64,000 nucleotides of DNA from Platanthera guangdongensis (lineage: Eukaryota; Streptophyta; Magnoliopsida; Asparagales; Orchidaceae): the NCBI GenBank assembly GCA_039583875.1, contig CM077155.1, forward strand, positions 5,940,043-6,004,042, read 5' to 3'. A program made the position numbers and the translations under genes. Below the pieces are notes generated by a model. It was not told the origin of the DNA. It did no database searches and saw only the letters and a program-made list of their open reading frames with translations. Every line of letters starts with the position of its first letter. Positions within the stretch are counted from its first letter, which is position 1. Of this stretch, positions 1,317-34,160 are shown in pieces.

Positions 1317-1437
1317 TGAAGGATCAAGCGCATAACCAACTGTTCCAAAAGCCCGAACTGTTGGAAAGGGTGCTACTTAATTTCTTAAATAAGTAGAAGA
1401 GCGCCACGGGTCAAGTGAAGGAACGCCGGACCTAACA
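1317..1437 (-). repeat. TRIM LTR, 3' copy
   Basis: This 121-bp repeat reads TGTTAGGTCC...GATCCTTCA on the minus strand and has TG/CA ends. It matches 12359-12479 at 119 of 121 positions. Confidence 0.9.
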
Positions 1438-1687
1438 ATGCCCCCCCACGGCGTCCAGCACAACCCGTCAGCTCAGAGGTGGAGTTACCACATGGCCCAC
1501 ATGGCTCAGAGGTGGGGTTACCACATGGCCCACACGGCTCCGAGGTGGGGTTACCACATGTCCACGGTTTCACGGCTCAGAGGTGGGGTTACCACATGTC
1601 CACGGTTGCCTGACCCGCCGGACCCACACAGGTAGAAGGGAAAAATCAGGATTTAATAGCGCTCCCCCGATCTTGAACCCGTGACCT
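1438..1687 (-). other. TRIM internal domain, non-coding
   Basis: About 250 bp lie between the TRIM LTR and the primer site and hold no credible ORF. A G-rich tract (minus strand, 1440-1449) next to the LTR is a candidate polypurine tract. Such a short non-coding body with short LTRs is the definition of a TRIM. Confidence 0.75.
1471..1610. repeat. Imperfect tandem repeat, four 33-38-bp units
   Basis: Units start with gctcagaggtgg at 1471, 1504, 1537 and 1575, and each contains ggttaccacatg or a close variant. Spacing is 33, 33 and 38 bp. The repeat lies inside the TRIM internal domain. Confidence 0.85.
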
Positions 1688-1699
1688 GCTCTGATACCA
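1688..1699 (-). promoter_or_regulatory. Primer-binding site (tRNA-iMet) of the TRIM
   Basis: The minus strand reads TGGTATCAGAGC, the standard initiator-methionine tRNA primer site. Here it follows the end of the SIRE LTR (1702) and leads into TRIM internal sequence (AGGTCACGGG). Confidence 0.85.
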
Positions 1700-1701
1700 A
1701 T

Positions 1702-3221
1702 TGAAAGTGCAACTAGATCTGATATACTCTAGAGGGGGTGAATAGAGTATATGGTGCCTTAAAAACTTTTACAAGCTTTTACAACAATTGTTGTAATATG
1801 TGTGAGCAGGGAAGCAATAAAAAATTTAACCACACTACTAAGTTAAATAAAACACTAAGCACAGACAAATCAAGGCCAGAAACAAAAATGAAAGCAAGCA
1901 GAACCAGAAGACACAAGGAAATATAGTGGTTCCCCAAACTTGGGTACATCCACTCTTCTACCACCCTAGGTAGGAATCCACTGCAGGATGAGTTGATCAG
2001 GTGTCCTGGGCACCAATGAGCTTTTGATAAGGTGCTCAAAAACCAAAGCAGATTTTTTGATCAGGTGTCTTGCCACCAATGAGCTTTTGACAAGGTGCTC
2101 AAAAACCAGATTCAAACTTTTGAAGGGAGTTTGAAAAACCCTTTACAGAGTGGGGGTGAGAGAGTGATGGCAGTCTTCTCTTTCTCAAACAACTGAGAAG
2201 ACTATGTGGATTGTTGTCAAAGCTCCCCCTGAATCCTTGAAATCTTCAGGAAGAAAAGCTTTGCTGAGGGTGATAAGCCTTCAAATATTGAACTCCAGCA
2301 ATGGATGATTTCAGCAATAGCTGAAATGTTGAGTGTCTGAAGTCTTGAAATGATGTTGGCCTTGAACACTTTGAGAGCTGAAGAGATATGAAGATTTTTG
2401 AAAGCTTGATCTCTTTGGATGAGTGTTCTTCAGAATTCTTTTTGACAGAAGATTTTGAATGAGTCTCTGTAATCTATCTTGTGTGTGCTCTTTTTCTTGT
2501 TCTTCTTCTTGATTCAAAAAACATTCTGTCTTTTATTCTTTAGTGCTGAATAGAATATCATTCTCTGTCAAGGATAGCCGTTGGTATGCATTGATTGCAT
2601 CCTTAATTGCATAATCTCTTCTGGAGGAAAGTCCACAGAATTATTCCTTGAAAAGTCCCTTGAAACTTGGTCCAGAATTGAATGAAAACGGCTAGCAAAT
2701 CTCTGAATTAATTGCAGAATAACTCCTAACTGATTTGAATTTGAATTCTGGAAGTTATCTGAAATCGTCGAACTGAGCTCTGCTATCATCGAGCTGAGCT
2801 CAGCGATCAGGAAATCTTAAGCAGCAAAAAAATCGTCGATCTGAGCTCAAAGATCGTCGAACTGAGCTCAGAGATAAAGATCTAATGCAGAGTCAAAATC
2901 GTCGACCTGAGCTCACCGATCGTCGAATGGAGTTCGACGATATTATGAAGTTGAGCTCAGCGATCGTCGAATGGAGTTCGACGATCTGTCAAAGTTGAGC
3001 TAGACGATCGTCGACCGGAGTTCGACGAATCGTCGTGCTGAGCTCGACGATCAGACTTAGTCTCTAGACAGAAAAACTTGGTCTTCAGGGCAGCTTCCAA
3101 ACCTAGACTTCTAACCCTTAGACTCAATTCTAATTGACCTTTTAAGCTATACAGGAGGTCAAACAAAGGTTCCTAGAGACATAGTGATCCTGACCCAAAT
3201 TAGTAATAGGGTGTTCCAACA
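1702..3221 (-). repeat. SIRE element A, 3' LTR
   Basis: This 1520-bp LTR runs TGTTGGAACACC...GCACTTTCA on the minus strand. It is closely related to the LTRs of element B. It is the only SIRE LTR in A; the matching 5' LTR is replaced by the TRIM LTR at 12359. Confidence 0.88.
2763..3053 (-). repeat. CGTCGA inverted-repeat array in the LTR of A
   Basis: There are about ten imperfect units of the form atcgtcga, 5-8 bases, tcgacgat. They sit 170-460 bp from the start of the LTR (minus strand). Some units are decayed (GAGCTCA in place of TTCGACG). Equivalent arrays sit in the same place in B and C. Confidence 0.85.
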
Positions 3222-3234
3222 ATCTCCCCCTATT
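3222..3234 (-). other. Polypurine tract of SIRE A
   Basis: The minus strand reads AAATAGGGGGAGAT directly before the TGTTGG of the 3' LTR. This is the plus-strand primer of reverse transcription. Confidence 0.8.
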
Positions 3235-3388
3235 TGGGTTAGGATTACTATTTACAGACTTTGGAAAATTCAAATAATAACATACAATCAGTAAAACAAG
3301 AAAACAGCAGCTAGACATTGCAGAAACACAGAGATATATATATGTCATCCAGATAATCAGAAATTCCAGAAATTGTCACCTTACAATG

Positions 3389-6300
3389 TCACTTCTTCTC
3401 TTTGCCTTTAACCATTTTGATTTCTCTGTTTGGATTTAGAGCTTCCTTGTTGGACCTGGTGTCATCTGCTGCACCCAAGTAAGTTTGCTTTGAAGGCCTG
3501 GGAACCACAACAGCAGGATGTAACTCCATGTATCTGTCAGCATCAAAGAATTTGCTGGAGGCATATCTGTCTAATTCTTTCTGTCTTTGTTCTGACATTG
3601 TAGAAATGTTGGAAGAATCTAATCCTTGTTCTTTGGCCTTCTTAATCTGATCCAGTGCAGCCAATTCCTTCATCCTGGCAGTCCAAGCAGCTGGATTCTT
3701 TTCAGGGTCCTCAAATGGTACATGTGGCTCATACCTGTTGGAAGAATTGTCTTGAGGAGGCCTGGTAGACACTGTCTCTTTTAACTTGTAGGGGAAAGGA
3801 CCAGAAGTTGTATCAGATGAGACATGTCCTCCCCTAAAATATGGGTGCTGCCTGGAATACCCTTTAGAATAAACTTGAGTATCTCTCTGATTACCCCTGT
3901 ATCCTCCTCTCCTAGAATATGAACCCCTAGATTGGCCTTCCCTTTGGTAGGATCTGGCATGGGGTTGATAGGGAGCCTGGCTTCTAGCTGGGGGTTGACT
4001 TGCAGAGCTTCCACCTACACCTGCATCAGGAGGAGGTGGTGGAGGAGGATGAGGGTGCTGGAATTGGGAAGAGCCCTTCTCATATTTTCTCTTTTTTTTT
4101 CATGGCTTTCAGCTGGTTTTTGGAATATTGCATCCAGTGCTCAATAATTTGGCAGTTATGAAGGATATAATAAGGGATATCATTATTATCTTTGACTTTT
4201 GCAGGAGGAACCCTTTTCATTGCCTTGCTCCTTGCCTTCCTTTTCCTGGCAATGGTAGCAGATGAGTCATCAGAGTCTGTTTTGAATTCATCAGATTCAG
4301 AGCTCTGGTCATCATATATAGCATCTATTTTCTTCATCAATTCTTTCTTCAGCTGAACAGCAGCAGATACAGGAGGTGAAGCAGGAACAACAACAGCAGC
4401 AGTAGAGGTGACAGCAGCAGATGGAGCAGCAGATGGAGAGGGTCCAACAGAAGCAATTATAGCAGCAGCAGCAGATACTGGACTGGTGACAACAGCAGCA
4501 ATTGTCTCACTATCATCAGCAGAAATTTCACTAACAGCAGAAATAACATCAAAAACTGCAGCAGGCTCAAAAACAGTTGCCTCTGTCATAGGACAATCCT
4601 TAGATATTTGTGCAGCAGAAACAGTTGGAACTTCAGCATCAATAAAAACAATCTCAGCAGCAGTATCAACAATCCTTTCTTCAACAGCAGTAGCAGCAAC
4701 AACTTCAGTAGCAGCAATTACTGAGAGTACAAAAGAAGAGATAATGTTAGGGTCACAGTAGGAGAAGGGCACCAGTGCCTTGGATAGGTCTTCTGGGGGC
4801 TGGACAGCATTACTCTCTGGCAGACAGCTATAGAAGGCAGAATCAAAAGCAGAAAGCAAAGACCTTAGGTCAATTGCAAGAACTGCAGTAGGAGTCTGAC
4901 ATTCTGGAGGCACAACAACAAGAGCAGAAGGAGCAGCAGACACAGAAATATCAGCAACAGCAGCAGTATCATCAGCAGCAGGAGCAGAAACAGCAGCAGC
5001 AACAGCATAAAAGCTTGCTTCATATGACATCTCCCCCTGCCTAGATGCAGAAACATCTGGATCAAGGCACACTGCTGGAGGTGCTGCCTGAGGAAGGAGG
5101 GAGGAAAGCCTGGCAGAGAGGGCTGCCACTGACAGGTGTAGAGGAGCCAAGGAGGTCTCCAAGAGTAGAGAGAGCCTGGGGGCAATTAGCTCATACAACC
5201 TGTCAGCTAGGGCTGAGAGGTCTACTTGCTCAACTGCTGGAGCAGAGGTAGATGGAATAGGAGTGGCTGAAGATGCTGGAAGTGGAGGGCTGGAGAGTGG
5301 TGGTATGGATGGCTGAGGTGTTGGGATGGTGGATATGGAGGACAAGGGGATGGATATGGATGGAGTGAATGTTGGTTGAGCAATGATGTGGTGTAGGAGG
5401 TCTTGGAAAGAAGTGGAGGAGGAAGGTAATTCAGGAGGAGAGGATGGGGAATCATCCATATAGGAATCATCCAGGAGGGTGAAGGATGGAATGGATGGTG
5501 AAGAGGTGATATCTGGTGGAGGGTATGAGAACAGTGGTTGGAATTGGTCTGCTGGTGGAGGTAGAATGGGGTCTGGAGATGGAGTTGATGTTGGAGATGG
5601 GCTAGATATGGTAATGGTGGGTGGAGCTGGAGTGGTGGATGGTAGGGGAAGGGTTGGAATTGGAGGAGGAGGAGAGGCAGCAATAGCAGCAGCCAGGTCT
5701 TCTGCAGGAGCAGTGACCTGTGGGAGAGTGACTCCTTGAGTCCTTGTGCCTGAAGGAGCACTTGAGGAGGGCCTGCCAGGCTTGCTTATTTGCCTGTCCC
5801 ACTTGCCAAAGAGGGCACAGGTAAGTCTCTTGGAGGCATTTATGTGAACTCCAGAGGAGACCAGCAAGGCAGGGCACCTGGTCTGCAGGAAAACTCCAAG
5901 AATCCTTCCAAAATTAACAAAACTTTTGTTTATTTTCTTCTTGATGAGGTCAAAGAACACCTCTCCCCAGTTCAAACTTTTCTTATCCACCAGAGCTCCC
6001 ATGAGGCAGAGCTGATGTCTGGAGATAGTATCATGAGCTGAGTGCTTTGCCAACAGCACTTTCCCTACCACATCTGCCAGGAACCTGTATTCAACAGACA
6101 GATTCCTCTTGAATAGCTTGCTAGGGTTTCCCTCTGGATGACCCATCCTGGCAAGCAGGTCAGAAAATTCTTCTCCTGATAACTCAGCAATATCTTCTCC
6201 ATTTCTCAGTCCAAAGACTTCTGTTAAAACTGTGGGGGTCAAGGGTACCTGGTTTCCAGCAATAGACCCAACTATTGTGTTGTTGTCTTGATTATGAGCA

Positions 6301-6491
6301 GTGTAGACCCACTCCTTTATCTCATCTGAAGCCAGCTTGATTCTAGTGGTCATGAGGGCAGACAGATTCTGGTCTTTGAACAAACCCAGTATGTCTTGGA
6401 AAATCTGATCAGTGGTGTTGAAGGATTCCAGATCAATGTCGAACCCAGCATCGAACTTCATTGCGGCAAGAACTGCAACTGACACAGCCAT
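3389..6491 (-). pseudogene. SIRE A ORF3 (third ORF after pol), frameshifted
   Basis: An 803-residue frame starts at 6491 (MAVSVAVLAAMKFDAGFDID). It is followed in other frames by pieces at 4014-3781 and 3772-3389. A run of T at about 4088-4096 marks one frameshift; a second lies near 3780. The N-terminal 230 residues are well conserved with B and C and resemble the 'putative plant transposon protein' domain as I remember it. A Pro/Ser/Thr/Ala-rich middle follows, then a basic segment with YYILHN and MQYSKNQLKAMKKK. I see no signal peptide or membrane segment, so the usual label 'envelope-like' for SIRE ORF3 is not supported here. A splice-acceptor-like sequence (TTTTTGCAG, boundary 6497/6496) ends 5 nt before the start codon. 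Confidence 0.75.
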
Positions 6492-6639
6492 TGTACCTGC
6501 AAAAACTCAACAAACAAAACCACCAAGCGTAGAACTGTTTGGAGGGAAAGAAAATCCTGCAGAGAAATCGAAAGCGCAAGAGAGAACTACGACGAAAAAT
6601 GAGTTTTATATTAGGGTTCGACGCAGAATTGGAAAGATC

Positions 6640-6908
6640 GTTGAACTCAGTTCGACGATCGAGGCTCCTAAAGGAATCTGAAGAGACTCCAACATCGTCG
6701 ATCTCCGTTCGACGATCTTGGAAAGCGTCGAGCTCCGTTCGACGATCATTCAGTGACCATAATCGTCGAGCGTCGTTCGACGATCGTTGACCGGAAGAGA
6801 TAGTTCATACTATCTGAGAAGCGCTGAACTCAGTTCGACGATTTGGGAAATCGTCGATCTCCGTTCGACGATCTTAGGGGAAATCGTCGAGCGCAGTTCA
6901 AAGATCAG
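6640..6908 (-). repeat. CGTCGA inverted-repeat array between pol and ORF3 of A
   Basis: There are about eight units such as atcgtcgatctccgttcgac. They lie in the leader between the end of pol (6985) and the ORF3 start (6491). Arms of 8-9 bp with a 5-8-base spacer could form hairpins in RNA. Confidence 0.87.
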
Positions 6909-6984
6909 AAAAATTCTAGACACTAAAAAAAATCAGAATTTTTGCCTAGTCTTGGTCAATTTTGAGCTTTCAAAATCTTGGATA

Positions 6985-9900
6985 TTATTTAAGGCTTCCT
7001 CCATCTAACATTCCTAACTGATTTAGGAAGAAGGTGTGTTTCTTTTCATCCAAAGGCTTGGTGAAAATATCTCCCCTTTGTAAATCAGTTGCGATATATT
7101 GTAATTTAATTTTATTCTTTTCAACATTATCCCTTAAGAAATGATGCCTAATCTCTATGTGTTTTGTCCTACTATGGAGGACTGGATTTTGAGCTATGGA
7201 AATAGCACTTGTATTGTCACAAAAGATTTTAGACTTCTCTAAGTTGTAACCATAGTCTAGGAGTTGGTTTTGAATCCACAAGATTTGTGAACAACAACTG
7301 CCTGCAGCCATATATTCAGCTTCAGCAGTTGAAGTTGACACAGATGTTTGTTTCTTACAAACCTAAGAGACAAGTCTGTCACCAAGGAACTGACAAGTTC
7401 CACTGGTGCTTTTCCTGTCAATTCTGCATCCAGTATAATCAGCATCTGAGAATCCAGTTAAATCAAATGATGAATCTTTTGGATACCAGAGACCTAGATT
7501 TGGACAACTCTTAACATACCTGAGAATCCTCTTTACTAAAGTGAGGTGTGACTCTCTAGGGCTTACTTGGAACCTAGCACATATACATGTAGCAAACATT
7601 ATATCTGGTCTACTAGCTGTAAGATACAGTAAAGAGCCAATCATTGCTCTATATATTGTCTGATCAACAGCTTTCCCATGTTCATCAGCATCTAATACAG
7701 CATTGGTAGGTATGGGTGTTTTCATACAAGATGCCTCAGACATACCAAATTTCTTAACCAGTTCATTAGCATATTTGGTTTGAGAAATAAAGATGCCTTC
7801 AGCATGTTGTTTGACTTGCAATCCTAGGAAGAAGGATAACTCACCCATGCTACTCATCTCAAATTTAGAATGCATTAGGTTAGAAAACCTTCTGCACAAT
7901 TTTGAGTCAGTAGAACCAAAAATGATATCGTCTACATAAATTTGTACTAGTAGGGTATGGGACTTATGGGTTCTAATAAAAAGAGTTTGGTCTACTCTAC
8001 CCCTTATAAAACCATTTTCCAAGAGAAAGCATGCTAGGGCCTCATACCATGCTCTAGGAGCTTGCTTGAGACCATATAATGCTTTGTTTAATCTAAAAAC
8101 ATAATCAGGATAAGTTGAAGAGATAAAACCTGGAGGTTGTCTGACATAAACTTCCTCTTTGATGTCTCCATTCAAGAAAGCACTTTTGACATCCATCTGA
8201 TATACTTTGAAGCCTTTGTGAGCTGCATAAGCTAGAAAAATCCTAATGGCTTCTAATCTTACAACTGGTGCAAAGGTCTGGTAGTAGTCAATTCCTTCTT
8301 CTTGAGAATATCCCTGAGCAACTAGCCTTGCCTTGTTCCTTATAATTACTCCTTGATCATCCAGTTTGTTTCTGAATACCCATTTAGTTCCAACAATGGA
8401 ATTATCCTTAGGCTTTGGCACTAGTTCCCATACTTTGTTCCTCTCAAATTGATGCAACTCCTCTTGCATTGCAATGATCCAGTGTGGATCTTGCTCTGCA
8501 TCTTGAATGGACTGAGGTTCAATTTGAGATAGGAAGCAGGTGTGCAACAGGTTTTGGTTGACCTGATTTCTGGTTTGCACACCAGCTGAGATTTCTCCAA
8601 TTATTTGGGAAATTGGATGGTCTCTTGATGTTACTAAATCAACAGGGGGTGTTGATTGTTCACCAACCTGTGTTGTTGTTTCCTCTTGTGGTACAACAAC
8701 TGGCTCTTCAAGTTGAGCTTCAATGTGTTGAGCATTCCCTTCATCTTCACTGCTTTCATCCTCTTGAGTAACATGTAACCTGTTCAAGTCTTCAACTAGA
8801 GAATGTTCCTGCAAAGGTTCTATGGTAGAAGAAATCTTCTCCTTGAAAGACATGTTAGTTTCATCAAATGAAATGTGAACAGATTCCTCAATTTTCAAAG
8901 ATGATTTATTATAGACCCTGTAGGCCTTGCTAATCATGGAGTATCCCAGAAACACTCCTTCATCAGCTTTGGCTTGAAATTTTGCTAAATATTTCTTGTC
9001 ATTATTGTGAATATAGCAAATACAACCAAAAATTCTAAAATAGTCAACTTTAGGTTTCTTTCCTTTGAGTAATTCATAGGGAGTCTTTCCCTTTAGTTTA
9101 TGTATCAGACTTCTGTTCAGCACATAGTTGGAGGTGTTCACTGCCTCTGCCTAAAAGGATAGAGGAAGATGAGCATCTGACAACAATGTAGTGGCAGATT
9201 CAATAAGGGTTCTATTTTTCCTTTCAGCTACCCCATTTTGTTGAGGAGTTCTAGGAGCTGAGAAAGTATGCCTGATCCCTTCACTCTGACAGAACTCTTG
9301 CATAAGAAGAGAATCAAACTCTGTCCCATGATCACTTCTGATCAGGGCAATGTGAGTATTGAACTCAATCTGTATACATTTGAGAAACTCTGTCAGACAC
9401 TTAAAGTTATCAGACTTCTTCCTTAGAAAGAACACCCAAGTGAATCTAGAGAAGTCATCTATAATTACTAAAGTGTAGGATTTCCCTCCTAGGCTTTATA
9501 CTGTGATGGGTCCAAAAAGATCCATGTGTAACAGATATAATATCCTAGGTGAATCACTCTTATTAAGTGACTTAAAACTGTTTTTAGTTTGCTTGCCTAA
9601 TTGACAAGCCCTGCAGAGTCCTTCCTTCTTGTAGGGACCAGAAGGTAGTCCTCTAACAAGGTTGTACTTGGATAGCCTAGCAATAGTTCTAAGGTTTAGG
9701 TGTCCTAGTCTCTTATGCCATAACACATTTGATCTACAGACTGAATTAAACAAGCAGATATCTACATTGGTTGAAAGAAAGTCTACTAGGTAGATGTTAC
9801 CTTTCCTTTTACCTGTCAACACTGTTGTGTTGTCCTCTGACTTGATTTTGCATAAGGCTTTGCTGAAGGTCACCTGGTAGCCTTCATCACACAGCTGACT

Positions 9901-10149
9901 GATGCTGATTAGGTTGTACTTCAGTCCTTCCACATATGCTACCTTCTTGAAGGTTACTGATCCAATCTGGACTGCACCATATCCTTTAGTTTGTCCAAAG
10001 TTGGAATCACCAAAGATAACTATGGGTCCAAGCTTGGCTCTGAAGGATGTGAGGTTGTCCTTGTTCCCTGTCATGTGCTTAGAGCACCCACTATCCAAGT
10101 ACCAGTGCTGGTTAGATGTTGGATAGGTCTTCACCTGCATATAAAACAA
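6985..10149 (-). pseudogene. SIRE A pol: protease, integrase, RT, RNase H
   Basis: One frame of 1055 codons is interrupted by three stops: TAA at 9496-9498 (a Gln codon in B), TAG at 9151-9153 and TAG at 7363-7365 (both Trp codons). Domains in order: aspartic protease with [15 protein letters not shown]-pre-integrase zinc region, DDE integrase ([10 protein letters not shown], then [13 protein letters not shown]), RT with YVDD near 7925-7940, and copia RNase H with SDADYTGCR and TSTAEAEYMA. The order PR-IN-RT-RH defines Ty1/copia. Pol begins in a different frame from the end of gag, after the gag stop, next to a CAG|GT at 10135-10137. All motifs are intact, so the damage is limited to the stops. 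Confidence 0.9.
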
Positions 10150-10150
10150 T

Positions 10151-12225
10151 TTACTTGTTTTTGACCCAGTTTACCTTGGGCCTAGGTTGATAACCTTTAA
10201 ATTCAGAAATGAAAGACATCCCAGGTTGACTCTTATATCCTTCAGGATGATATATCCTTGGAGGTAAAATCCATTCACTATAAGGGTTAAAGGTTTGGGA
10301 TGAAGAACACTTAGGATTCAATTTTGATTTGCCTTTGAAAAGGTTTCCAGAGCTCTGACCTCTGTTCGACGATCTTGGAGCTGCGTTCGACGATCGTGGG
10401 TCAGATCGTCGAGCTCCGTTCGACGGTCGACTATGGCTGAGGTCAGGTATATGAGATCGTCGACCTGCGTTTGACGACTTTGGCTGAGATCGTCGATCTG
10501 CGTTCGATGATTTTTCCTGAGATCGTCGAGCTGCGTTCGGCGATCGTCGATCTACGTTCGACGATCGTCGATCTACGTTCGACGATTTCTGCTGGGACTT
10601 AGTTTTCTGAGGCAGATCAGAATTTTTCCTAGCAACCTCTACAACTCCCTTTCCCTTGTCAGAAATAAACTTGATGGGAGTTGTTAGAACAATAGGTTGG
10701 CTGGATGAGGCACCCAAGCCCAGTGTACTGTTAAATCTAGAGTTCACTGTGCTTGTGATGTCCATCAGCTTGATGCTTCTCCCATTAAGGGATTCTTCAA
10801 GCTTCTTGGCCTCAGAGAGCTCACTTTTCAGTGTAGCTATCTGTTCCCTACAGTTCTCCAACTCCTGAGAGAGTTTGAGGTTTTCTGACTTTAAACATTG
10901 TGTTCAGATAATTGATTTCTGAGAGAGATAATCTCTTTCTCAGACTTTAGCAGGTCTAAACACAGTGCTTTAAATTCAGATTTAAAATCTTCTGAACTAA
11001 AATCAAAAGAGCTAATTACCTGATCTTCTTCAGGTTGAGTCTCTGAGTCTGACTCTGACTCCTCTTCCTCTGAGTTGTGTTGTGAGGCATTGATTGCCAT
11101 CATGCAGAACTCCTTTTCTTCTGCATCATCCTCATCATCACTGGAGCTGGATGAGGCTTCTGACTCCTCTTCTGTCTCACTCCAGGATTCAGCAACAAAC
11201 CCTTTTCTTGTATGCTTATTTTTACTTGAAGAAGGTTTGCCATTTCCATTCCTTTTGGAGTCTTTCTCCTTTCTTCTTTCTTTTCTGTCCCTTCTGTCCT
11301 TGGTCTTGTTCTCTGGACAGTCAGGAACTATGTGCCCTGGTTTCCTGCAACCAAAGAAGATAATGTCTTTATTGTTGCTAATGGACTTGTCATACCTTGG
11401 CTTGTCCTGCTCCTTGTATGATCTTCTTCTGAAGTCCTTTCTGACCATCTTGTAGAATCTTTTGGCCAACAAGCTGAGTAGTTCATCATTTCCTGTGCTC
11501 TTATCTTCAGGCAGATCCTCAGTTGCCTTAAAGGCTATGGTCTTCTCTTTCCTTGTGGCTGGTGAAGCAGCCTTCTGTTCTTCCTCTCTATTCTTGATAA
11601 GTAGCTCATAAGATTTGAGCTTACCCAGTAAAGCTTCAGTGGTGATCTCATTTAGACTTCTGGCATCCTTAATTGGCCAGATTCTTGAATCCCAAGTGCT
11701 GGGGAAGCACATTAGGATCTTGTCATTAAGTTCTGTCAGAGAAATCTCTTTGTCCAATGTCCTTAGTTCACTGACAATTAGACTCAGTCTGTTGTACATG
11801 TCTCTCACTGACTCAGTCTCTCCCTTCTTGAAGTTCTCATATTGGGAGATGAGATGGGATCTTCTATCCTTTCTCTCATCAGCTGAGCCTGAGACAATTT
11901 TTGAGAGCTTGTCCCAAATTTCCTTGGCTGAATTGCATTCAGCTACCTTTTGAAATATGTCATCTGACATTGTCTGGGCTAGAATGTTCATAGCCTTGGC
12001 ATCAGCTACCTTCCATTTCTTGATGTCAGAATCTGTTCCTGATTGAGGTGGAACAGCATTTGTACTTGTGCTCTCTGGGGGTCTTGGACATACTGTCAAA
12101 ACAGAATTAAAAATGTCTTCGTCAATGGAATTCATGTAAAGTCTAATCCTTGCTTTCCAAAGTGCAAACTTTGACAGATTGCACACTGGAGGTCTGGTGC
12201 TAGCATAATCTTTGTTTTGGGCCAT
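10151..12225 (-). pseudogene. SIRE A gag
   Basis: Gag starts MAQNKDYASTRPP at 12225. The gag fold region (residues about 15-230) is like that of copia UBN2-type gags. The zinc knuckle is damaged: FFGCRKPGHIVPDC replaces CFGCRKPGHIVPDC of B, so the first Cys is lost. Acidic Ser/Glu-rich and coiled-coil stretches follow. A frameshift near 10890 separates the first 450 residues from the C-terminal 236. The C-terminal part holds an SSN-x-D/A-R-R-S peptide repeat encoded by the inverted-repeat array, and ends PKVNWVKNK. Confidence 0.87.
10365..10590 (-). repeat. CGTCGA inverted-repeat array inside gag of A (translated)
   Basis: About nine units lie here. The sense strand reads atcgtcgaacgtagatcgac or close variants. 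In frame these give repeats such as SSNVDRRS, SPNAARRS and SSNADRRS. The array sits between the coiled-coil part of gag and its conserved C-terminus. Confidence 0.88.
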
Positions 12226-12344
12226 GATTTGTGCAAACAAAAACTAATAATAAAATACAGAAGAAAAGCAGATCTAGTTTGGGATCTTGGGGTTCAGGTG
12301 TTAGCCTGTACAACCAATCAGATATGGTATGTTTAACCAACCTG

Positions 12345-12356
12345 GCTCTGATACCA
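12345..12356 (-). promoter_or_regulatory. Primer-binding site (tRNA-iMet) at the 5' junction of the chimera
   Basis: The minus strand reads TGGTATCAGAGC, two bases after the end of the TRIM LTR. The bases that follow (CAGGTTGGTTAAAC) are SIRE leader, as in B and C, not TRIM internal sequence. Confidence 0.9.
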
Positions 12357-12358
12357 AT

Positions 12359-12479
12359 TGAAGGATCAAGCGCATAACCAACTGTTCCAAAAGCCCGGAC
12401 TGTTGGAAAGGGTGCTACTTAATTTCTTAAATAAGTAGAAGAGCGCCACGGGTCAAGTGAAGGAACGCCGGACCCAACA
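12359..12479 (-). repeat. TRIM LTR, 5' copy
   Basis: 121 bp, TG...CA. It occupies the place where the SIRE 5' LTR would be. It differs from the other copy at two positions (A/G and T/C). Confidence 0.9.
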
Positions 12480-12484
12480 GAAGC
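12480..12484. repeat. Target-site duplication of the chimera, right copy (GAAGC)
   Basis: This matches 1312-1316, and the G1 LTR continues immediately with GCTCTGAGATC. Confidence 0.92.
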
Positions 12485-15190: not shown

Positions 15191-18153
15191 CCCATCAGGG
15201 AGGAGGTGGCAAAACTCCTCAAGGCCGGCTTCGTCTCTGATATTCAGTACCCCGGCTGGGTCTCCAACGTGGTTATGGTTAAAAAAGGGGACGACCGATA
15301 GAGGATGTGTATCGACTTTTCCTTACTTAATAAAGCTTGACCTAAGGATTGTTATCCCTTGCCTCGGATCGACACGCTGGTCGACTCAGCCGTCAGTTTT
15401 TTTGTAATGAGTTTTTTAGATGCTTTTTCAGGTTATCACCAGATCAGGATGCACCCCCCAGACATCAAGGATGTCTCGTTCATCACAGGGGATGGATGCT
15501 ACTGCTACCGGATGATGCCCTTTGGGCTGAAGAATGCTGGGGCTACGTACCAGAAAATGATGGACAGGGTCTTCAAGGAGCAGAGGGGAAGGAATTTGGA
15601 GGTGTATGTAGATGACCTCATGATCAAGAGCCGGGATGTGGACTCCCACCTCCGGGACCTGGAGGAGACCTTCGCCACCCTGCGCAAATACAAGATGCGA
15701 TTGAATCCACTGAAATGTGTCTTTGGGGCCAGCAGGGGAAAGTTCTTGGGACACCTCCTCACCCCCGCAGGGGTTGAGCCGAATCCAGACAAGGTCAAAG
15801 CTATCTTAGAGCTGGGGTCCCCGCGGAATGCAAAGGAGGTCCAACGGCTGATAGGGAAGCTAGTAGGGCTGAGTCGCTTCCTTTCACGGGCAGGGGAAAA
15901 GTGCTCCCCCTTCTTCAAAACTCTAAGGGGGGGGGGGGGGGGTCATAGGTTTGAATGGACCAAGCAGTGTGAAGAGGCATTCCAGGCCCTCAAGGTGCAG
16001 TTGACACAGGCTCCGCTGCTCCAAGGGCCGAAGGAGGGGGAGGACCTGTTCTTATATCTGGGGGTCGGGACGGAGGCCTTGATCTCGGTCCTGGTTCGTG
16101 AAGAAGGGAAGAGGCAGCTCCCAATTTATTACGTTAGCCGGGTCCTAAAGAAGGCCGAGCTCAGGTATCCGATTTTAGAAAAGTTAGCCTTCGCACTGAT
16201 CATCTCGGCTCGGAGGCTGCGACCTTACTTCCAGACACACTCAATCCGAGTGGTGACCGATCACCCCCTCCGCAACATCTTCGACGGGGTGGAGCATTCA
16301 GGCAGGTTGGCTAAGTGGTCGGTGGAGATGAGCGAGTTCGACATCTCCTTCATTCCGCGGCTCTCAATCAAAGCTCAGGCGATGGCCGACTTTCTTGCTG
16401 ACTACGTGGTTGAAGTGGCGGAGGAAGAGATCACTCGCCCGGCTCCTTGGAAGGTGAGGGTGGATGGAGCCTCGGGAAGACATTCCCTAGGAGTGGGGGT
16501 GATCCTAGAAAGCCCTCAAGGGACCCGAATCGAGCAGACTATGGTGGTACACTTTCCCATTACCAACAACCAGGCCGAGTACGAGGCCGTGATAGTAGGG
16601 CTTCGCCTGGCCAAGGAGCTTGGAGTGTCGGATGTGGAGGTCCTCACGGACTCCATGGTAGTAGCCTCCCAAATCAACGGGGAGTTCGAGGCAAGGGAGC
16701 CCACCCTGCGATCATACTTGGCCAAAGTAAAGGGGATCATTGGCACTTTTCAAACTTTCACCATCCGACATGTGCCCAGGGAAGAGAATGAGCAAGCCGA
16801 TCAGCTGGCCAAGCGCGGTCCCCAGGCGGGGGGCACCATTACCGACCTGTTCCGCCCCTCCATCGAAGAAGGAGAGATCATGGAAATCGATCAGCAAACG
16901 TCATGGATGAATCCAGTCATGGCTTTCCTCTCCACGGGTGAGTATCCGGAGGGGGTTGATAAGAAGAAATTGAGGCACAAGTCAGCATATTACCTCCTCT
17001 AGGACGGGCAGTTATACAGGAAAACCCTCTCAGGGATGCTGGCTCGTTGTGTGACCGAGGGAGAAGTACGGAGGATCGTGGAGGAAGTCCACTCCAGGGA
17101 ATGTGGAAGTCACTCCGGGAGTCGGACCCTGGAAGGGAGGATAGTCAGGCAAGGGTATTTCTGGCCCACCCTAGGCCGAGATGCTGTAGAGTTCGCAAGA
17201 AGATGTTATAAGTGCCAGATGTTTGCCCCTCTCCAGCTGCAGCCGGCCCAGCGACTCAGAAGTATCACGGCCCCATGGCCCTTCGCAATTTGGGGAATGG
17301 ACTTGGTAGGACCATTCCCCCAAGCCAGCGGTCAGAGAAGGTTCCTCCTGGTGATGATTGACTACTTCTCAAAATGGATGGAGGTGAAGGTGTTGGCCAA
17401 GGTGACCTCCCAGGTGATCAGGAACTTTGTTTGGGGAGAGATCATCTGTCTCCATGGGCTACCCCAGGCCATCGTCGCGGACAATGGGCCCCAGTTCGCC
17501 AATGCCGAGTTCACCAGCTTCTGCGAGCAGCTTGGAATCGACCTCAGGTTCGCCTCGGTCCACCACCCCAGGAGTAACGAGCAGGTGGAGGCCGCGAACA
17601 AGATCATCGTCAACCTCCTCAAGAAGAAGGTGGAGAATCTGAAGGGGAGCTGGGTGGAGCAGCTTCCTGCGGTTCTTTGGGCCCTAAGGACCACCCCCAA
17701 CACGGCTACGGGAGAGACTCCCTTCAAACTCTCCCACGGGTGCGAGGCAGTGCTCCCCATAGAATTTGAAGTCCAAATGCCGCGAGTCGTTGCAGAAAAA
17801 GAAGGTCGTGGGGAGTGGCAAGCAGAGAATGAGGAGGAACTGAGGTTCTCCCTAGACATGGTGGAAGAGGTTAGGGACCTTTCCGCTATCCGACAGGAGG
17901 GGGTAAAAAGAAGAATGACCAAGTACTTTGACAAGCATGTCAGGGTCAAGCAGTTCGTGGAAGGGGACTTGGTACTAAAGAAAGTAGATGCAGCAGGGAG
18001 GTCAGCATCCGTGGGGAAGCTCAATCCCAGCTGGGAGGGACCATCATTATAAAGGTAGCCTTGGGGTCAGGGGGCTATCGACTCCAAAATGTAGAAGGCG
18101 AGACCCTGAGTCTCACCTGGAGTGGTGACGACCTCAAACGATTTTTCCCCTGA
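15191..18153 (+). pseudogene. G1 pol: RT, RNase H, archaeal-type RNase H, integrase
   Basis: This is the same reading frame as gag, with in-frame stops at 15188 (TAG), 15299 (TAG at the Trp of the K-W-R-M-C region), 15338 (TGA at a Cys) and 17000 (TAG). RT has FLDAFSGYHQIRM and YVDD (about 15604-15615). RNase H includes PIYYVSRVLKKAELRYPILEK. A second RNase H begins near VDGASG and continues with NNQAEYEAV and LTDSMVV; this domain marks the Tat clade. Integrase has an H-H-C-C finger (HSRECGSHSG...CYKCQ), GMDLVGPFP, VADNGPQF and VEAANK. A frameshift near 18040 moves the last 35 codons, which end with DDLKRFFP before TGA at 18151. No chromodomain is present. Confidence 0.88.
15927..15942 (+). 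repeat. Homopolymer of 16 G inside G1 pol
   Basis: The run lies between RT and RNase H and keeps the frame as a string of Gly codons. Such runs are prone to slippage or sequencing error. Confidence 0.9.
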
Positions 18154-18245
18154 AACATGTAAGCAGCACTTTGATTATAATAAATTCCTTCAAGCTCTCT
18201 GATATTGTTGTAACTAGCCTGCATGGTGGAATGTGATGTATTTTG

Positions 18246-19121
18246 GACCCCGAGCAGATCCCGCTGTCAAGCTATCACCTAGCTGGCAGGGCTGGAAGTC
18301 ACTCGGTGTCATCCTTGGCCTCGAGCAGATCCCGCTGTCAGGCTCTCACCTAGCTGGCAGGGCTGGAAGTCACTCGATGGTGGTAGTAGCGGACCCCGAG
18401 CAGATCCCGCTGTCAGGCTCTCGCCTAGCTGGCAGGATTGGAAGTCACTCGGTGTCATCCTTGGCCTCGAGCAGATCCCGCTGTCAGGCTCTCACCTCGC
18501 TGGCAGGGCTGGAAGTCACTCGATGGTGGTAGTAGCGGACCCCGAGCAGATCCCGCTGTCAGGCTATCACCTACCTGGCAGAGCTGGAAGTCACTCGGTG
18601 TCATCCGTGGCCTCGAGCAGATCCCGCTGTCAGGCTCTCACCTAGCTGGCAGGGCTGGAAGTCACTCGATGGTGGTAGTAGCGGACCCCGAGCAGATCCC
18701 GCTGTCAGGCTCTCACCTAGCTGGCAGGGCTGGAAGTCACTCGGTGTCATCCTTGGCCTCAAGCAGATCCCGCTGTCAGGCTCTCACCTAGCTGGCAGGG
18801 CTGGAAGTCAGTCGATGGTGGTAGTAGCGGACCCCGAGCAGATCCCGCTGTCAGGCTCTCACCTAGCTGGCAGGGTTGGAAGTCACTCGGTGTCATCCTT
18901 GGCCTCGAGCAGATCCCTCTGTCAGGCTCTCACCTAGCTGGCAGGGCTGGAAGTCACTCGATGGTGGTAGTGGCAGACCCCGAACAGATCCCGCTGTCAG
19001 GCTCTCACCTAGCTGGCAGGGCTGGAAGTCACTCAGTATCATCCTTGGCCTCGAGCAAATCCCGCTGTCAGGCTCTCACCTAGCTGGCAGGGCCGGAGGT
19101 CACTCTATGGTGCCGGCCTTG
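18246..19121 (+). repeat. Tandem array, six 146-bp units, in the G1 3' region
   Basis: Units begin gaccccgagcagatc at 18246, 18392, 18538, 18684, 18830 and 18976, exactly 146 bp apart. Each unit is itself a duplicated ~73-bp half: both halves share cagatcccgctgtcaggc and gctggaagtcactcg but differ in the tail (ggtgtcatccttgg versus gatggtggtagtag). No conserved protein is implied because 146 is not a multiple of three. Arrays like this in the untranslated 3' region are known in Tat/Ogre elements and can seed satellites. Confidence 0.95.
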
Positions 19122-19704
19122 AAGTCGTCAGGTACAGGTCAAAGTCTGTGGCAGGGAGCAAAGGGGAAGGGTCCTGTCAGGGCGAGTTCGGGCTCGGCAA
19201 GCTCAGCTCGGCATAATCAAGAAGGCAAGCCGGGCAGGAGGGCTCTGCATGGGCGAGTTCGGGCTCGTCATTCCCGGCTCGGCATTGGCGAGTAGTCCGC
19301 AATGCGGGCCTCGCCAAAGAAAGACAAGATAGGCTGGGGGATCCCGCCCCCTTGGCCCATTACACTTCAAATATTTCCTCTTTGACGGGCCCAACCTGGA
19401 TGGCTTGCGTGCGAGTAATAGTGGCGTGATAAGGGCGGAGAGAAATTTGCCACAAAATCGTTTGGGGCTCGGCGAACACTCAAAACGCGTCTCGCTCGCG
19501 TGCGCGCTCTCATAATCACTCTACTCGCGGAACCTGTCTCTACGAGGTCGCGGGAGGAAGCACTCGCATACATTCAGAACATAATAAGCATAGTAAAAGG
19601 AAATGACACCGGTATGATCAAAAAACTTTCATTATTTACAAAGTTACAGGGAGCTCGCCTCAGCGAGTAATCAAAAAAGAAAGAAAAAAGAAAATACAAG
19701 GCTA
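19122..19704. other. Non-coding spacer of G1
   Basis: This GC-rich stretch contains repeated 'gggctcggc' and 'cgagttcgggctcg' words and no credible ORF. It separates the tandem array from the end of the antisense gene. Confidence 0.6.
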
Positions 19705-23497: not shown

Positions 23498-24172
23498 TGT
23501 ACAACCCCGTGTCAGGCGAGCAAGACCACTAGGAGGCGGGCAGATCAGGCTAGGAGCAGCAGGCGAGCTCGGCAGCGGCAGGGGCGAGGCTGAGCTCGGC
23601 AAACGTCGACTAGAGATCGACGATCGGCGACCCTCGAGCTCGGCGTTCTCCAGGCGAGCCACAGCTCGCGTCCTCACAGTGGAGCTCGGCAGCGATAGGC
23701 GAGCAGTACATGCCGAGGTGCCCAGAGCTCCCAGCTCGTCTGGGTGTCAGAGGTACTTTTTACTATTTTACCCCTGCTGGTCTGCCCATAGCCCTTCAAA
23801 ACAGCGGAGTTTGGCTGTTGACAGACCCGGCCGAGGGTTTTCTGGTAATTTTAGGTCAGTTATTTTGGTTATTGGCAGTCCAGATTTCAAAAGCTATAAA
23901 TAGGACCCAAGGGGTACCCCAGAAGGCAGGTTCTTCCCTGTGCTCTTCTCCCCAAAATCTTTAAGTGCTTTCTGAGGGTACCTTAGCTCGGCTTCAGGCT
24001 AAGGAGGGGAAGCGCTTTGAGATCTTCCGGGTTTGTGGTGGGACCTCCCTGCCGAGCCCTTGGGTCTGTTTCCCCTTGTTTTGTTGTTTTTCTTGCAGGA
24101 TCGAAGTAGGCGCGAGACCACCCCTCTTCCCCAAGGGCGAGCTCCACAGGAAGCCGGGTTCCGGTTTCAACA
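23498..24172 (+). repeat. G1 3' LTR
   Basis: 675 bp, TGTACAACCCC...GGTTTCAACA. It is uninterrupted and serves as the reference for the split 5' LTR. TATAAATA is at 23895-23902, and a CGTCGA...TCGACG inverted repeat is at 23604-23622. Confidence 0.93.
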
Positions 24173-24177
24173 CAAGG
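24173..24177. repeat. Target-site duplication of G1, right copy (CAAGG)
   Basis: Identical to 796-800. Confidence 0.9.
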
Positions 24178-26718: not shown

Positions 26719-28321
26719 TGTTGGAACTCCCTATTACTAATTTGGGTCAGGATCACTATATCTCTAGGAAACCTATTTTTGACCTCATTGTATAGATCTA
26801 AAGATCAATTAGAATTAAGTATAAGGGTTAGTAGTTAGGTTTGGAAGCTGCCCTCAAGACCAAGGATTTTCAGTTTGGAGACTAAGTCATATCGTCGAGC
26901 TCAGTACGACGAATCGTCGAACTCTAATCGACGAACGTTGAGCTCACTTCGACGGATCGTCGAACTCCATTCGACGATCGCTGAGCTCAACTTCTACAAA
27001 TCGTCGAACTCCATTCGACGATCTTCGAGCTCAGTTCGACGATCTTGACTTCGGTATTGATTCTTTATCTCTGAGCTCAGTTCGACGATAGTTGAGCTCA
27101 GATCGACGATCTCTGTTGCTGTCTAAGTCCAAATCGCTGAGCTCAGTTCGACGATAGTGGAGCTCAGTTCGACGTTTTTCTGAAGAGTTAAATGATTTTC
27201 AAGATTCAAATTCAGAACAGTTAGGGAGTTATTCAGCAATTAATTCAGAAGATTTTCTAGCCGTTTTCATTTATTATGGACCAAGATTCAAGGGATTATC
27301 AAAGAATGTTTCTTTGGACTTCCCCCCAGAAGACAATTGCAATTAAGGAAGTCATTTAATGACAGGATAACGGCTATTCTGGACAGGGATCATTTTCTAT
27401 TCAGAACCAGGGAATAAAAGACAAGATTTTTTGAATTTTCACAACACAGATAAGCAGAACAAGAACAAAAATTTTTCTCTAGAACAACATCTTTCTGAAC
27501 ATCAACTGTTCACAAGAGAAAAAGAAAAGAAAACGAACTGTTGACATTCTTTGTCTAAAAGAATTCATACAGAACACACATCTAAGGAGATCAACCATCT
27601 GAAATTTTCAGATCTCTTGTGATTCAAGTGTTCAAGGCCAACATCATTCAAAGACTCCAGACACCTAACATTTCTGCTGTTGCTGAAATCATCAATTGCT
27701 GGAGATCATTTTCTGAAGGCCTATCACCCTACAGCAAAGCTTCATTTCCTGAACTCTCAAGAACGCAGGGGGAGCTTTGACAACATCAAATCCACATAGT
27801 CTTCTCAGCTGCTTTGAGAAAGAGAAGACTTCCATCACTCTCTCATCCCCATCTCTGTAAAGGGTTTTTCAAACTCCCTTCAAAAGTTTGTGCTTGGTTT
27901 TTGAGCACCTTATCAAAAGCTCATTGGTGGCAAGACACCTGATTAAAAAAATCTGATTTGGTTTTTGAGCACCTTATCAAAAGTTCATTGGTGCCCAGGA
28001 CACCTGATCAACTCATCCTGCAGTAGATTCCTACCTAGGGTGGTAGAAGAGTGGATGTACCCAAGTTTAGGGGAACCACTATAGCTCCTTGTGTCTTCTG
28101 GCTTGCTTGTCTTTATTTTTGTTTCTGGTTGTGATTGATCTGTGATTAGTTAGGATCTGTGATTAGTTCCTTTTGTAGATTGTAATTAGATAACTGCTGT
28201 GTTTAGATTTATTATTTGCTTCCCTGTTCACTCAGATTGCAACAATTATTGTAAAAACATTTTAAGCACCATACTATATTCACCCCCCCTGTAGAGTATA
28301 TCAGATCTAGCTGCACTTTCA
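26719..28321 (+). repeat. SIRE B 5' LTR
   Basis: 1603 bp, TGTTGGAACTCC...GCACTTTCA. Near its end it carries the typical CACCCCCCCTGTAGAG box. Confidence 0.93.
26890..27176 (+). repeat. CGTCGA inverted-repeat array in the 5' LTR of B
   Basis: About ten units, for example atcgtcgaactccattcgac followed by gatc, alternate with gagctcagttcgacgat. They begin 170 bp into the LTR, the same place as in A. Confidence 0.9.
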
Positions 28322-28334
28322 ACTAGTGTCAGAG
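28322..28334 (+). promoter_or_regulatory. Primer-binding site of SIRE B, diverged
   Basis: ACTAGTGTCAGAG follows the LTR. It resembles the tRNA-iMet site ATTGGTATCAGAG of A with three changes. Either this copy has decayed or its subfamily uses a variant primer site. Confidence 0.6.
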
Positions 28335-28479
28335 GGAGGTTGGTTAAAAACACCACATCTTCGAGGTTGGTTAAATATACCACATCTCAGTGGTTGCACA
28401 GGCTAACACCTGAACCCCAAGATCCCTAGTTAGATCTGCTTGTTTTGATCTTGTTATTAGAATTAGATCTTCACAAATC

Positions 28480-30493
28480 ATGGCCCAAAACAAAGATTAT
28501 GCTAGCACCAGACCTCCAGTGTGCAATCTATCCAAGTTTGCACTTTGGAAAGCAATGATTAGACTATACATGAATTCTATTGACGAGGATATTTTTAATT
28601 CTGTTTTGACAGTTTGTCCAAGACCTCCAGAGAACACAAGCACAAATACTGTTCCACCTCCATCAGGAACAAATGCTGATATCAAGAAGTGGAAGGTAGC
28701 AGATGCAAAGACTATGAACATCTTAGCCCAGACCATGTCTGATGAAATCTTCCAAAAGGTGGCTGAATGCAATTCAGTAAAGGAAATCTGGGATAAGCTG
28801 TCTGAAATAGTCTCAGGATCAGCTGATGAAAGAAAGGACAGGAGATCCCACCTCATATCCCAATATGAGAACTTTAAGAAGGGAGAAGCCGAGTCAGTTG
28901 GAGATATGTATAATAGACTCAGTTTGATAGTCAGTGAACTCAAGACTTTAGATAAATAGATCTCACTGACTGAACTTAATGACAAAATCCTAATGTGCTT
29001 CCCAAGTACTTGGGACTCAAGGATCTGGCCAATCAAGGATGCCAGAAGTCTGAATGAGATCACAACAGAAGCTCTTTTGGGCAAGCTCAAATCTTATGAG
29101 CTGCTCATTAAGAACAGAGAAGAAGAGCAGAAGCTGCCTCACCATCCACAAGAAAAGAAAAGACAATAGATTTCAAAGCAACTGAAGATCAGCCTGAAGA
29201 CAAAGTCACAGGCAATGATGAGCTGCTCAGTCTATTGGCCGAAAGATTTTACAAGATGGTCAGAAAGGACTTCAGAAAGAGATCATACAAGGAGCATGAT
29301 AAGCCAAGATATGATAAGTCAAACAATAAAGAAATTGTTTGCTTTGGTTGCAGGAAGCCAGGACACATTGTACCTGACTGTCCAGAGAACAAAAACAAGG
29401 AAAAAAAGGATAAGAAAGAAAGAAGAAGAGAAAAGGACTTCAAGAAAAGTTGCAATGGCAAACCCTCCTCAAGCAAGAACAAACACACAAGGAAGGGATT
29501 TGTTGCTGAATCCTGGAGTGAAACTGAAGAGGAGTCAGAAGCTTCATCCAATTCCAGTGATGATGAAGATGATGCTGAAGAGAAGGAGTTCTGCATGATG
29601 GCAATCAATGCCTCTCAACACAATTCAGATGTAGAAGACTCAGAGTCAGACTCAGAGACTCAACTTGAAGAGGACCAGGTAATTAGTTCTTTTGATTTCA
29701 ATTCAGAGGACTTTAAGTCTGAGTTTAAAGCACTGTGTTTAGACTTACTAAAATCTGAGAAGGAAATTATTTCTATCAGAAATCAATTGTCTGAACATAG
29801 TTCCTTAAGATCAGAAAACCTTAAACTCTCTGAGGAGTTGGAGTGTTGTAGGGAGCAGATAGCTTCACTGAAAGGTGAGCTATCAGAGGCAAGAAGCTTG
29901 AAGAATCCCTTAATGGGAGAAGTATCAAGCTGATGGACATCACAAGCACAGTGAACTCCAGATTCAATAGTACACTGGGCTTGGGTGCTTCATCCAGCCA
30001 ACCTATAGTTCTAACAACCCCAATCAAGTTCATTTCTGATAAAGGAAAGGGAGTTGTAGAGGTAGCTAGGAAAAATTCTGATCTGCCTAAGAAAACTAAG
30101 TTCCAGCAGAAATCGTCGAACGGAGCTCGACGATCGCCGAACGGAGATCGACGATCTCAGGCAAAATCGTCGAACTCAGGTCGACGATCTCTATTTCCTG
30201 AACTCTACCACAATTGACCGTCGAATGGAGCTCGACGATCTAACCCAAGATCGTCGAACACAGCTCCACGATCGTCGAACAGAGATCAGAGCTCTGTAAA
30301 TTCTTTCAAGGGCAAATCAAAATCCAATCCTAGGGGTCCTTCATCCCAAAGCTTTAACCCTTATACTGAATAGATAATACCTCCAAGGAGATATCATCCT
30401 GAAGGTTATAAGAGTCAACCTGGGATGTCTTTTATTTCTGAGTTTAAAGGTTATCAACCTAGGCCCAAGGTAAACTGGTTCAAAAACAAGTGA
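28480..30493 (+). pseudogene. SIRE B gag
   Basis: Start MAQNKDYASTRPPVCNLSKF at 28480. Damage: TAG at 28957, a frameshift near 29130, another near 29900, TGA at 30215 and TAG at 30371 (a Trp in A). The intact zinc knuckle CFGCRKPGHIVPDC lies at about 29341-29382. Acidic Ser-rich and coiled-coil parts follow, then the SSN-x-x-R-R-S repeat region, then the conserved end PRPKVNWFKNK before TGA at 30491. Pol starts in another frame within about 20 bases. Confidence 0.87.
30112..30294 (+). repeat. CGTCGA inverted-repeat array inside gag of B (translated)
   Basis: About six units such as atcgtcgaacggagctcgac. They encode SSNGARRS and SSNSGRRS-like repeats, as in A and C. Confidence 0.88.
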
Positions 30494-30506
30494 ACTGTTT
30501 TATGTG

Positions 30507-33500: not shown

Positions 33501-33677
33501 CATCACTTTTTAAGGGATAATGTTTAGAAGCATAAAATTGAACTTCAATATATCCCAACTGATTTGCAAAGGGAAGATATGTTCACCAAACCCTTGGATG
33601 AAAAGAAACACACCTTCTTCCTAAATCAGTTAGGAATGTTAGATGGAGGAAGTCTAAAAAAATATCCAAGATTTTAA
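30507..33677 (+). pseudogene. SIRE B pol: protease, integrase, RT, RNase H
   Basis: A single frame from about 30510 to the stop at 33675-33677 has four internal stops: TAA 32709 (the Tyr of YVDD), TAA 32838, TGA 33282 (the Trp of LVSW) and TAG 33525. Protease has [12 protein letters not shown]; integrase has [10 protein letters not shown] and [13 protein letters not shown] has [12 protein letters not shown] and (Y)VDD; RNase H has SDADYAGCR and STAEAEYMA. Losing the Tyr of YVDD to a stop would truncate the polymerase in the middle of its active site, so B cannot make functional RT. The frame starts next to GTAG|GT (30506-30511). Confidence 0.92.
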
Positions 33678-34155: not shown

Positions 34156-34160
34156 TAACC

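Follow-up and report, generated by a model that had tools for sequence, protein, structure and literature searches.

The DNA analysed here, a 64,000-nt stretch of contig CM077155.1 in the Platanthera guangdongensis assembly GCA_039583875.1 (the window), holds at positions 1317-12479 a chimera of two long terminal repeat (LTR) retrotransposons: a terminal-repeat retrotransposon in miniature (TRIM) and a SIRE-type copia element. Read on the minus strand, it begins with a TRIM LTR, a primer site, the SIRE leader, the coding region from gag to reverse transcriptase, a further open reading frame (ORF3) and the SIRE polypurine tract, and continues with one full SIRE LTR, a second primer site, the TRIM internal region with its polypurine tract, and a TRIM LTR. 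The outer TRIM LTRs, each 121 bp, lie at 12359-12479 (5') and 1317-1437 (3', TG...CA) and differ at 2 of 121 sites, both transitions. The target-site duplication GAAGC flanks them at 12480-12484 on the element's 5' side and at 1312-1316 on its 3' side. The chimera sits inside the 5' LTR of a Ty3-gypsy element on the plus strand (801-24172, with its own duplication CAAGG at 796-800 and 24173-24177), and the paired 3' LTR of that host (23498-24172) preserves the unoccupied site with a single GAAGC.

The first primer site (12345-12362) starts with the TTCA that ends the 5' TRIM LTR and adjoins the SIRE leader inward; no 5' SIRE LTR was found in the stretch from this site to the leader. Within the SIRE part, Pfam matches occur in the order gag (PF14223, 10891-12243), gag_pre-integrs region (PF13976, 9496-10170) and copia reverse transcriptase (PF07727, 7363-9150). 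ORF3 (4080-6506; 808 codons from stop to stop), taken from the ORF list and a Pfam scan, had a sole Pfam match under the family cut-off, and an integrase core (rve) had no match in the five stop-to-stop ORFs scanned, the pieces between those ORFs lying outside the scan. The SIRE polypurine tract AGGGGGAG (3224-3231) precedes the single complete SIRE LTR (1702-3221), which begins as AGGGGGAG-AT/TGTTGG (slashes mark LTR boundaries) and whose terminal TTCA lies directly on the second primer site (TTCA/ATTGG TATCAGAGC, 1688-1705). Its ends were set by comparison with two other SIREs of the window, each with two LTRs (plus strand, ~26719-38890; minus strand, ~45.6-58.0 kb). The TRIM internal region (1438-1687) contains four repeats of 33-38 bp (1467-1607) and the polypurine tract GTGGGGGGGCAT (1438-1449), known from the window sequence and from plain TRIM copies. 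All these parts of the chimera read on the minus strand.

The pivot between the two elements is the 18-mer TTCAATTGGTATCAGAGC, which is exact at both joins (1688-1705 and 12345-12362); at up to 3 mismatches it has 3 matches in the window, against 0.09 on average and at most 1 in shuffled sequence. A nested insertion would show both inner LTRs and a target duplication of its own, whereas the inner SIRE has one LTR. A preliminary description of this DNA had already set out the outer LTRs with their two differences and GAAGC, the order of parts with a SIRE lacking its 5' LTR, and the 18-base identity with the primer site as pivot, and each of these points stood, the first with the added support of the empty gypsy site.

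Both partners can be assigned to known kinds of element. The inner SIRE LTR is preceded by AGGGGGAG-AT-TG, and the passage defining Sireviruses in PMC2829016 places the octamer AGGGGGAG so that it begins 10 bp upstream of the 3' LTR. The SIRE part encodes copia gag and reverse transcriptase, the envelope-like frame after pol being optional in this group. The Sirevirus 5' LTR/internal junction, CA/ATTGG/TATCAGAGC, occurs as an exact 16-mer at 12345-12360 and 1688-1703 on the minus strand; in that form, CAATTGGTATCAGAGC, it is shared by TRIM and SIRE, and the same part of PMC2829016 reports it as conserved across Sireviruses and assigns their primer to Met-tRNA. The TRIM has short LTRs and a short non-coding interior, about 0.5 kb in all, with a primer site, a polypurine tract and a 5-bp duplication. 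The primer is presumably the initiator methionine tRNA (tRNA-iMet), which we take from the published Met-tRNA assignment and from the plant tRNA sequence; an ARAGORN search of the window gave no tRNA gene. Six plain TRIM copies were checked (L002-L007), and all have the internal region seen in the window. Four of them (L002, L003, L006 and L007) have 121-bp LTRs, a length of ~505 bp and perfect duplications; the duplication of L004 agrees at 4 of 5 positions, and L005, where a third LTR is present, showed none.

TRIM and SIRE share both end contexts, polypurine tract-AT/TGTTGG at one end and TTCA/ATTGGTATCAGAGC at the other, the latter containing the primer site (the 3' TRIM LTR of the window itself reads TGTTAGG). 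When the TRIM was searched against the window, the SIRE LTR gave no match beyond the primer-site stretch. A scan of the viral_contigs collection, which is not one of plants, found no match to part of the TRIM LTR. In the plain TRIMs L004 and L005, the primer site varies between TGGTATCAGAGC-AGGTC and TGGTATCAGAGCCAGGT(T/C); the longer form fits the 3' end of tRNA-iMet better and may be a copy of the tRNA.

The joins recur across the genome. In the window's own assembly (4.25 Gb, 274 contigs), allowing up to 3 mismatches to each pattern, we counted 37 joins of TRIM LTR, primer site and SIRE leader and 20 of SIRE LTR, primer site and TRIM internal region, alongside 5,679 plain SIRE and 1,398 plain TRIM joins; control patterns read backwards had 0 matches for all four junction types. 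The TRIM LTR-SIRE pattern is off by one letter from every copy, the window included, so that two further mismatches were allowed and 37 is the more conservative count. These joins amount to less than 1% of plain SIRE joins, a rough ratio because the patterns differ in length and each derives from one copy.

Where both ends could be read, the chimeras carry target duplications of their own. Among 14 such loci, 13 have perfect 5-bp duplications and one has 4 of 5 positions, and duplications compared between different loci matched in 0 of 182 cases. Four product types are represented. TRIM LTRs lie at both ends of eight loci, seven with perfect duplications: the window (GCTTC on the element strand), L064 (TAACC), L048 (AAGGT), L033 (ACATG), L039 (TAGTA), L031 (CTTGT) and L053 (ATAGT); the eighth, L038, has the sole imperfect pair, ATGCA/ATGCC. 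The reverse nesting, in which a SIRE LTR and a TRIM unit precede SIRE sequence and a second SIRE LTR, is flanked by a perfect TGAGC at L049. Four short elements of 1.0-1.9 kb, read end to end, have a 5' SIRE LTR and a 3' TRIM LTR between perfect duplications (4 of 4): L068 (GAATT), L072 (AGCGT, its SIRE LTR shortened), L079 (ACCTC) and L077 (GGTTT). The opposite arrangement, a 5' TRIM LTR and a 3' SIRE LTR, occurs at L036 with a perfect ACATC and a spacing of ~11.1 kb known from the ends. Since each chimera with both ends read has its own duplication, each was inserted as a unit; where the two terminal LTRs differ and a single duplication encloses them, the simplest view is that the element already had both ends when it integrated. 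The junction types, the duplications at different sites, the shared ends and the recurrence were all observed directly.

For all 37 TRIM LTR-SIRE joins, 3 kb upstream was examined. Non-element DNA directly precedes the TRIM LTR in 24; in 8, a SIRE LTR (one of them partial), primer site and TRIM internal region lie upstream, the reverse nesting; one has the TRIM internal region upstream with no SIRE LTR recognised; two are preceded by extra TRIM units (one in L029, two in L052); and two defied classification (L054, a rearranged TRIM locus, and L056, with no recognised TRIM LTR). Half of the 20 SIRE LTR-TRIM joins are of the window type. Six of these have a partnering TRIM LTR-SIRE join elsewhere on their contig, at distances of 8.0 to 17.6 kb (10.6 kb in four cases), and in the other 4 the LTR follows SIRE polypurine sequence. 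The short mixed-LTR elements account for 4 more and reverse nestings for 2 (L081 and L074, the latter with its SIRE interior deleted). L074 had been considered as a join to an unfamiliar leader, a reading rejected because its continuation is SIRE (91% to window 5936-7045).

Several of these loci have further peculiarities. The window-type element at C17:55798942-55806989 spans ~8 kb and has both joins and the duplication TAACC intact, its inner SIRE LTR going unrecognised. Tandem TRIM arrays occur at L008 (701-2003 in element orientation; four LTRs with three internal regions) and at L052 (2123-3015; three LTRs running into SIRE), and such arrays may stem from the same primer-site jumps that we propose below. 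In the reverse-nested L065 (C19:45063955-45063997), the SIRE leader and gag are diverged (75-80% to the window) and fall near the window's minus-strand SIRE on the tree, so SIREs of more than one subfamily may take part in the joins.

The ages of the two parts appear to be linked. A tree was built from ~1 kb of leader and gag in 37 rows, comprising 34 of the 37 join loci, the reverse nesting L081 and the two window SIREs, the only plain SIREs included; L044, L046 and L054, which have no leader or gag, were left out. Across the seven loci that could be dated (0, 1, 2, 3, 5, 5 and 7 TRIM LTR differences of 121; L031 was unusable), divergence of the TRIM LTR pair follows the branching-off of the SIRE part (rho -0.90, n=7, 24 of 5,040 permutations as low), as it does in the first six alone (rho -0.93, 6 of 720 permutations). 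A young locus at C9:5.11 Mb has identical TRIM LTRs. Judged from these sequences, the correlation fits a single synthesis of TRIM and SIRE parts and would be unexpected had a circle entered an older TRIM. The label for reverse nesting changes 10 times on the tree, 9 of these forced by well-supported branches, and that for the other 5' end 11 times, 8 forced; here 'F2' denotes a 5' TRIM LTR and includes L036, and 'F1' takes in L043, which has no recognised SIRE LTR. Shuffled labels need similar numbers of changes (means 9.0 and 10.2), so the 5'-end label is not clustered.

The nearest relatives of the window copy suggest a recent origin. Among the best 40 of 5,790 candidates scored, the 39 other best matches to its leader and gag are 97-98% identical, and no locus of the 37 joins is among them; on the tree, the chimera nearest to the window copy reaches 95% identity. 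The absence of a join among these relatives suggests that the window chimera was newly made rather than copied, and by sequence comparison the plain SIRE pool is the most likely source of its SIRE part. Mixed-LTR elements should not replicate normally because matching end repeats are absent, and each of the five is probably its own event. Some nested copies may have replicated as such.

Taken together, these data suggest that TRIM and SIRE DNA copies have repeatedly been joined while being made. We consider it very probable that the chimera is an integrated product of complementary DNA (cDNA) synthesis, in which TRIM and SIRE strands were joined via their common tRNA-iMet primer site. During the second strand transfer, the 3' end of the plus strand, which would carry a copy of the primer site, has to pair with the complement of that site, which lies at a minus-strand end. 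Were it to meet the minus strand of the other element, one misplaced jump would give either TRIM LTR-SIRE-SIRE LTR or SIRE LTR-TRIM-TRIM LTR, and a second jump of the same kind would give the two nested types, that of the window included. The two mixed types are thus the products that would be expected if plus-strand strong-stop DNA were transferred to the other element's minus strand at the primer site. A single integrase would then insert the joined product and make the 5-bp duplication. We infer the order of the jumps, the acting integrase, and whether joining takes place in the particle or during later completion of the cDNA by host end joining. Each mixed element implies that one and the same integration complex joined its TRIM end and its SIRE end. 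Because TRIM and SIRE present the same terminal sequences (AT/TGTTGG and TTCA/ATTGG), the integrase was most likely that of SIRE, and SIRE is most likely the helper of this TRIM.

The preliminary description had offered two routes, entry of a one-LTR SIRE circle into a resident TRIM or joining during reverse transcription, and had drawn from the latter that SIRE mobilises the TRIM; the mixed-LTR elements and the age correlation favour the latter route, and the inference about SIRE gains support with it. The genome search that it proposed for more TRIM-LTR/SIRE junctions returned the 37 joins, plus 20 of SIRE LTR and TRIM. It had also held that many identical chimeras with different duplications would mean a chimera moving as a unit: each copy does have its own duplication and was inserted as a unit, but the chimeras are not identical, and the absence of joins among the window's 39 best relatives (from the best 40 of 5,790 candidates) suggests that it was newly made and not copied.

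Several points weigh against joining during cDNA synthesis, or limit how far it can be generalised. Nuclear end joining would need no sharing of a particle by both RNAs, and in the parts of PMC12786077 and PMC12426944 that treat animal elements, the second-strand step is ascribed to host end joining through microhomology at the primer site. Because the primer site is part of every search pattern, chimeras with a join at another place would escape; SIRE is the only tRNA-iMet-primed partner assessed for TRIM joins; and all joins come from one assembly of one accession. The interior was read for the window chimera and for the four short elements, the others being known by their ends, and 15 of the 24 loci with a 5' TRIM LTR are known from the 5' end only. 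At the 3' end, the stretch read covers the last 16 bases of the TRIM LTR in L031 and the whole of that LTR in L053, the inner SIRE LTR lying beyond it in both. The TRIM LTR...SIRE LTR type comprises one locus (L036), and four of the 20 SIRE LTR-TRIM joins are unclassified (L075, L078, L080 and L082). Finally, seven loci are a small number for the age test, and the search for nearest relatives scored the best 40 of 5,790 candidates.

Alternatively, a one-LTR SIRE circle could have recombined by homology into a resident TRIM at the 18-bp identity, with reverse nesting reflecting a TRIM circle in a resident SIRE. Such recombination would fit the window structure, taken alone, exactly, and target duplications of the outer element would be expected, but it would leave unexplained the five loci at which a SIRE LTR and a TRIM LTR share one duplication and would give no reason for TRIM LTR ages to track those of the SIRE parts at seven loci; with 18 bp of identity as all that was available, we regard it as very unlikely. 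A self-propagating composite with two primer sites, in which priming at the inner site flips the nesting so that the identity of the outer LTRs alternates between generations, appears quite unlikely. Both nesting orders do exist and are interleaved on the SIRE tree (10 changes of the reverse-nesting label, at least 9 forced), and reverse transcription from an inner primer would presumably yield the other order without extra recombination. However, no known join is among the 39 best relatives of the window copy (best 40 of 5,790 candidates), and TRIM LTR-SIRE joins make up roughly under 1% of plain SIRE joins; the tree, with only two plain SIREs, does not itself decide. That a composite RNA with two primer sites and two polypurine tracts alternates between TRIM-LTR- and SIRE-LTR-driven forms, the tRNA-iMet site chosen setting the outer LTR pair, is likewise unlikely; if true, a two-state composite would carry its helper's genes while switching the LTR that drives it.

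The large element could instead be an autonomous parent from which the TRIM arose by internal deletion, as proposed for OsajLTRA10 and OsajRetroS10 in rice, since TRIM LTRs and internal sequence are shared and the section of PMC4717578 on the rice element describes the same primer-site duplication. We find this highly improbable: the inserted part includes a complete LTR of another family with 5,679 plain joins, reciprocal mixed-LTR products exist, and plain TRIM joins greatly outnumber TRIM LTR-SIRE joins. An insertion of SIRE at the TRIM LTR/primer-site boundary, with ATTGG as its duplication and a 5' LTR later lost or dropped by the assembly, would account for ATTGG after the LTR end at both joins, but the same joins recur at many sites and have reciprocal products, and it is hard to credit at all. 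Recurrence at many sites and the reciprocal products also led us to reject assembly error. Joining at the primer site during cDNA synthesis remains our preferred reading.

Other features of the window concern the SIREs and the gypsy host. The SIRE LTR (2763-3052) has palindromic repeats around GATCGTCGA...TTCGACGATC, and these recur before ORF3 (6622-6912) and downstream of gag (10336-10592), with similar ones in the host gypsy LTR (882-927 and 23579-23624). They resemble the Sirevirus repeated motifs described in part of PMC2829016, whose core is in most cases a different one (CGG-CCG). In the complete SIRE at 26719-38890, which is flanked by the duplication CACTT, the primer site next to the 5' LTR (ACTAGTGTCAGAGGG, 28322-28340) is strongly altered. 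The gypsy host contains 146-bp tandem repeats at 18099-19128, of which six overlapping copies were listed.

Complex LTR retrotransposons formed by template switching have been described before. Sabot and Schulman (2007, PMC1950507) reported four complexes attributed to the joining of two templates in reverse transcription; like the window chimera, these have a third, inner LTR, two cores, one target duplication and near-identical outer LTRs. They differ in having similar partners and a proposed switch between R regions, whereas the chimera combines a non-coding TRIM with a Sirevirus, with unrelated LTRs, a primer-site pivot, mixed-LTR units and more loci. In rice, the 8.5-kb copia element OsajLTRA10, with TRIM-sized LTRs (115 bp), was read as the autonomous parent of OsajRetroS10 (Gao et al. 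2016, PMC4717578); like our chimera, it has TRIM internal sequence and a repeat (25 bp, containing TGGTATCAGAGCC) on either side of the breakpoint, and the section describing it mentions no inner copia LTR. By analogy, we predict that OsajLTRA10 may be a primer-site chimera. In maize, the section of PMC4528315 on the Wukong TRIM and Sanzang describes an intermediate element with TRIM LTRs and TRIM internal sequence, through which a copia partner was proposed, as well as TRIM tandem arrays, but gives no primer-site junction, reciprocal product or target duplications for it. In Arabidopsis Onsen bursts, co-packaged RNAs likewise recombine often, which is taken to happen while they are reverse transcribed, but in the portion of PMC5668417 concerned this is within one family, and the LTR products mostly fit a first template switch in R. 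The step at which misjoining would occur here, pairing of the plus and minus cDNA strands through microhomology at the primer site, was reportedly described by Yang et al. in 2023, as cited in reviews (PMC12786077, PMC12426944), though for fly and mouse elements and circles of one element. Our literature search, with subscription journals mostly outside it, found no description of TRIM/Sirevirus primer-site chimeras or mixed-LTR units. Du et al. in 2010 reportedly described LTR swapping in soybean. Relative to known complex elements, the unrelated partners, the primer-site pivot, the four product types and the recurrence are new.

What mobilises TRIMs is an open question: the relevant part of Gao et al. 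(PMC4717578) lists 278 of 289 TRIM subfamilies without a protein-coding relative, and that of a paper on Cassandra calls its autonomous partners unknown (PMC7215508). A TRIM LTR and a helper LTR in one duplication mean one integration complex at both ends, and so provide genomic evidence for the partner. Since the junction search uses short patterns and works in any genome, it could put a name to the helpers of orphan TRIMs without relying on sequence similarity. We suggest that published TRIM 'autonomous parents' with a duplicated primer site be re-examined. More generally, these elements indicate that little more than a common primer site can suffice for two elements to be misjoined in the second strand transfer.

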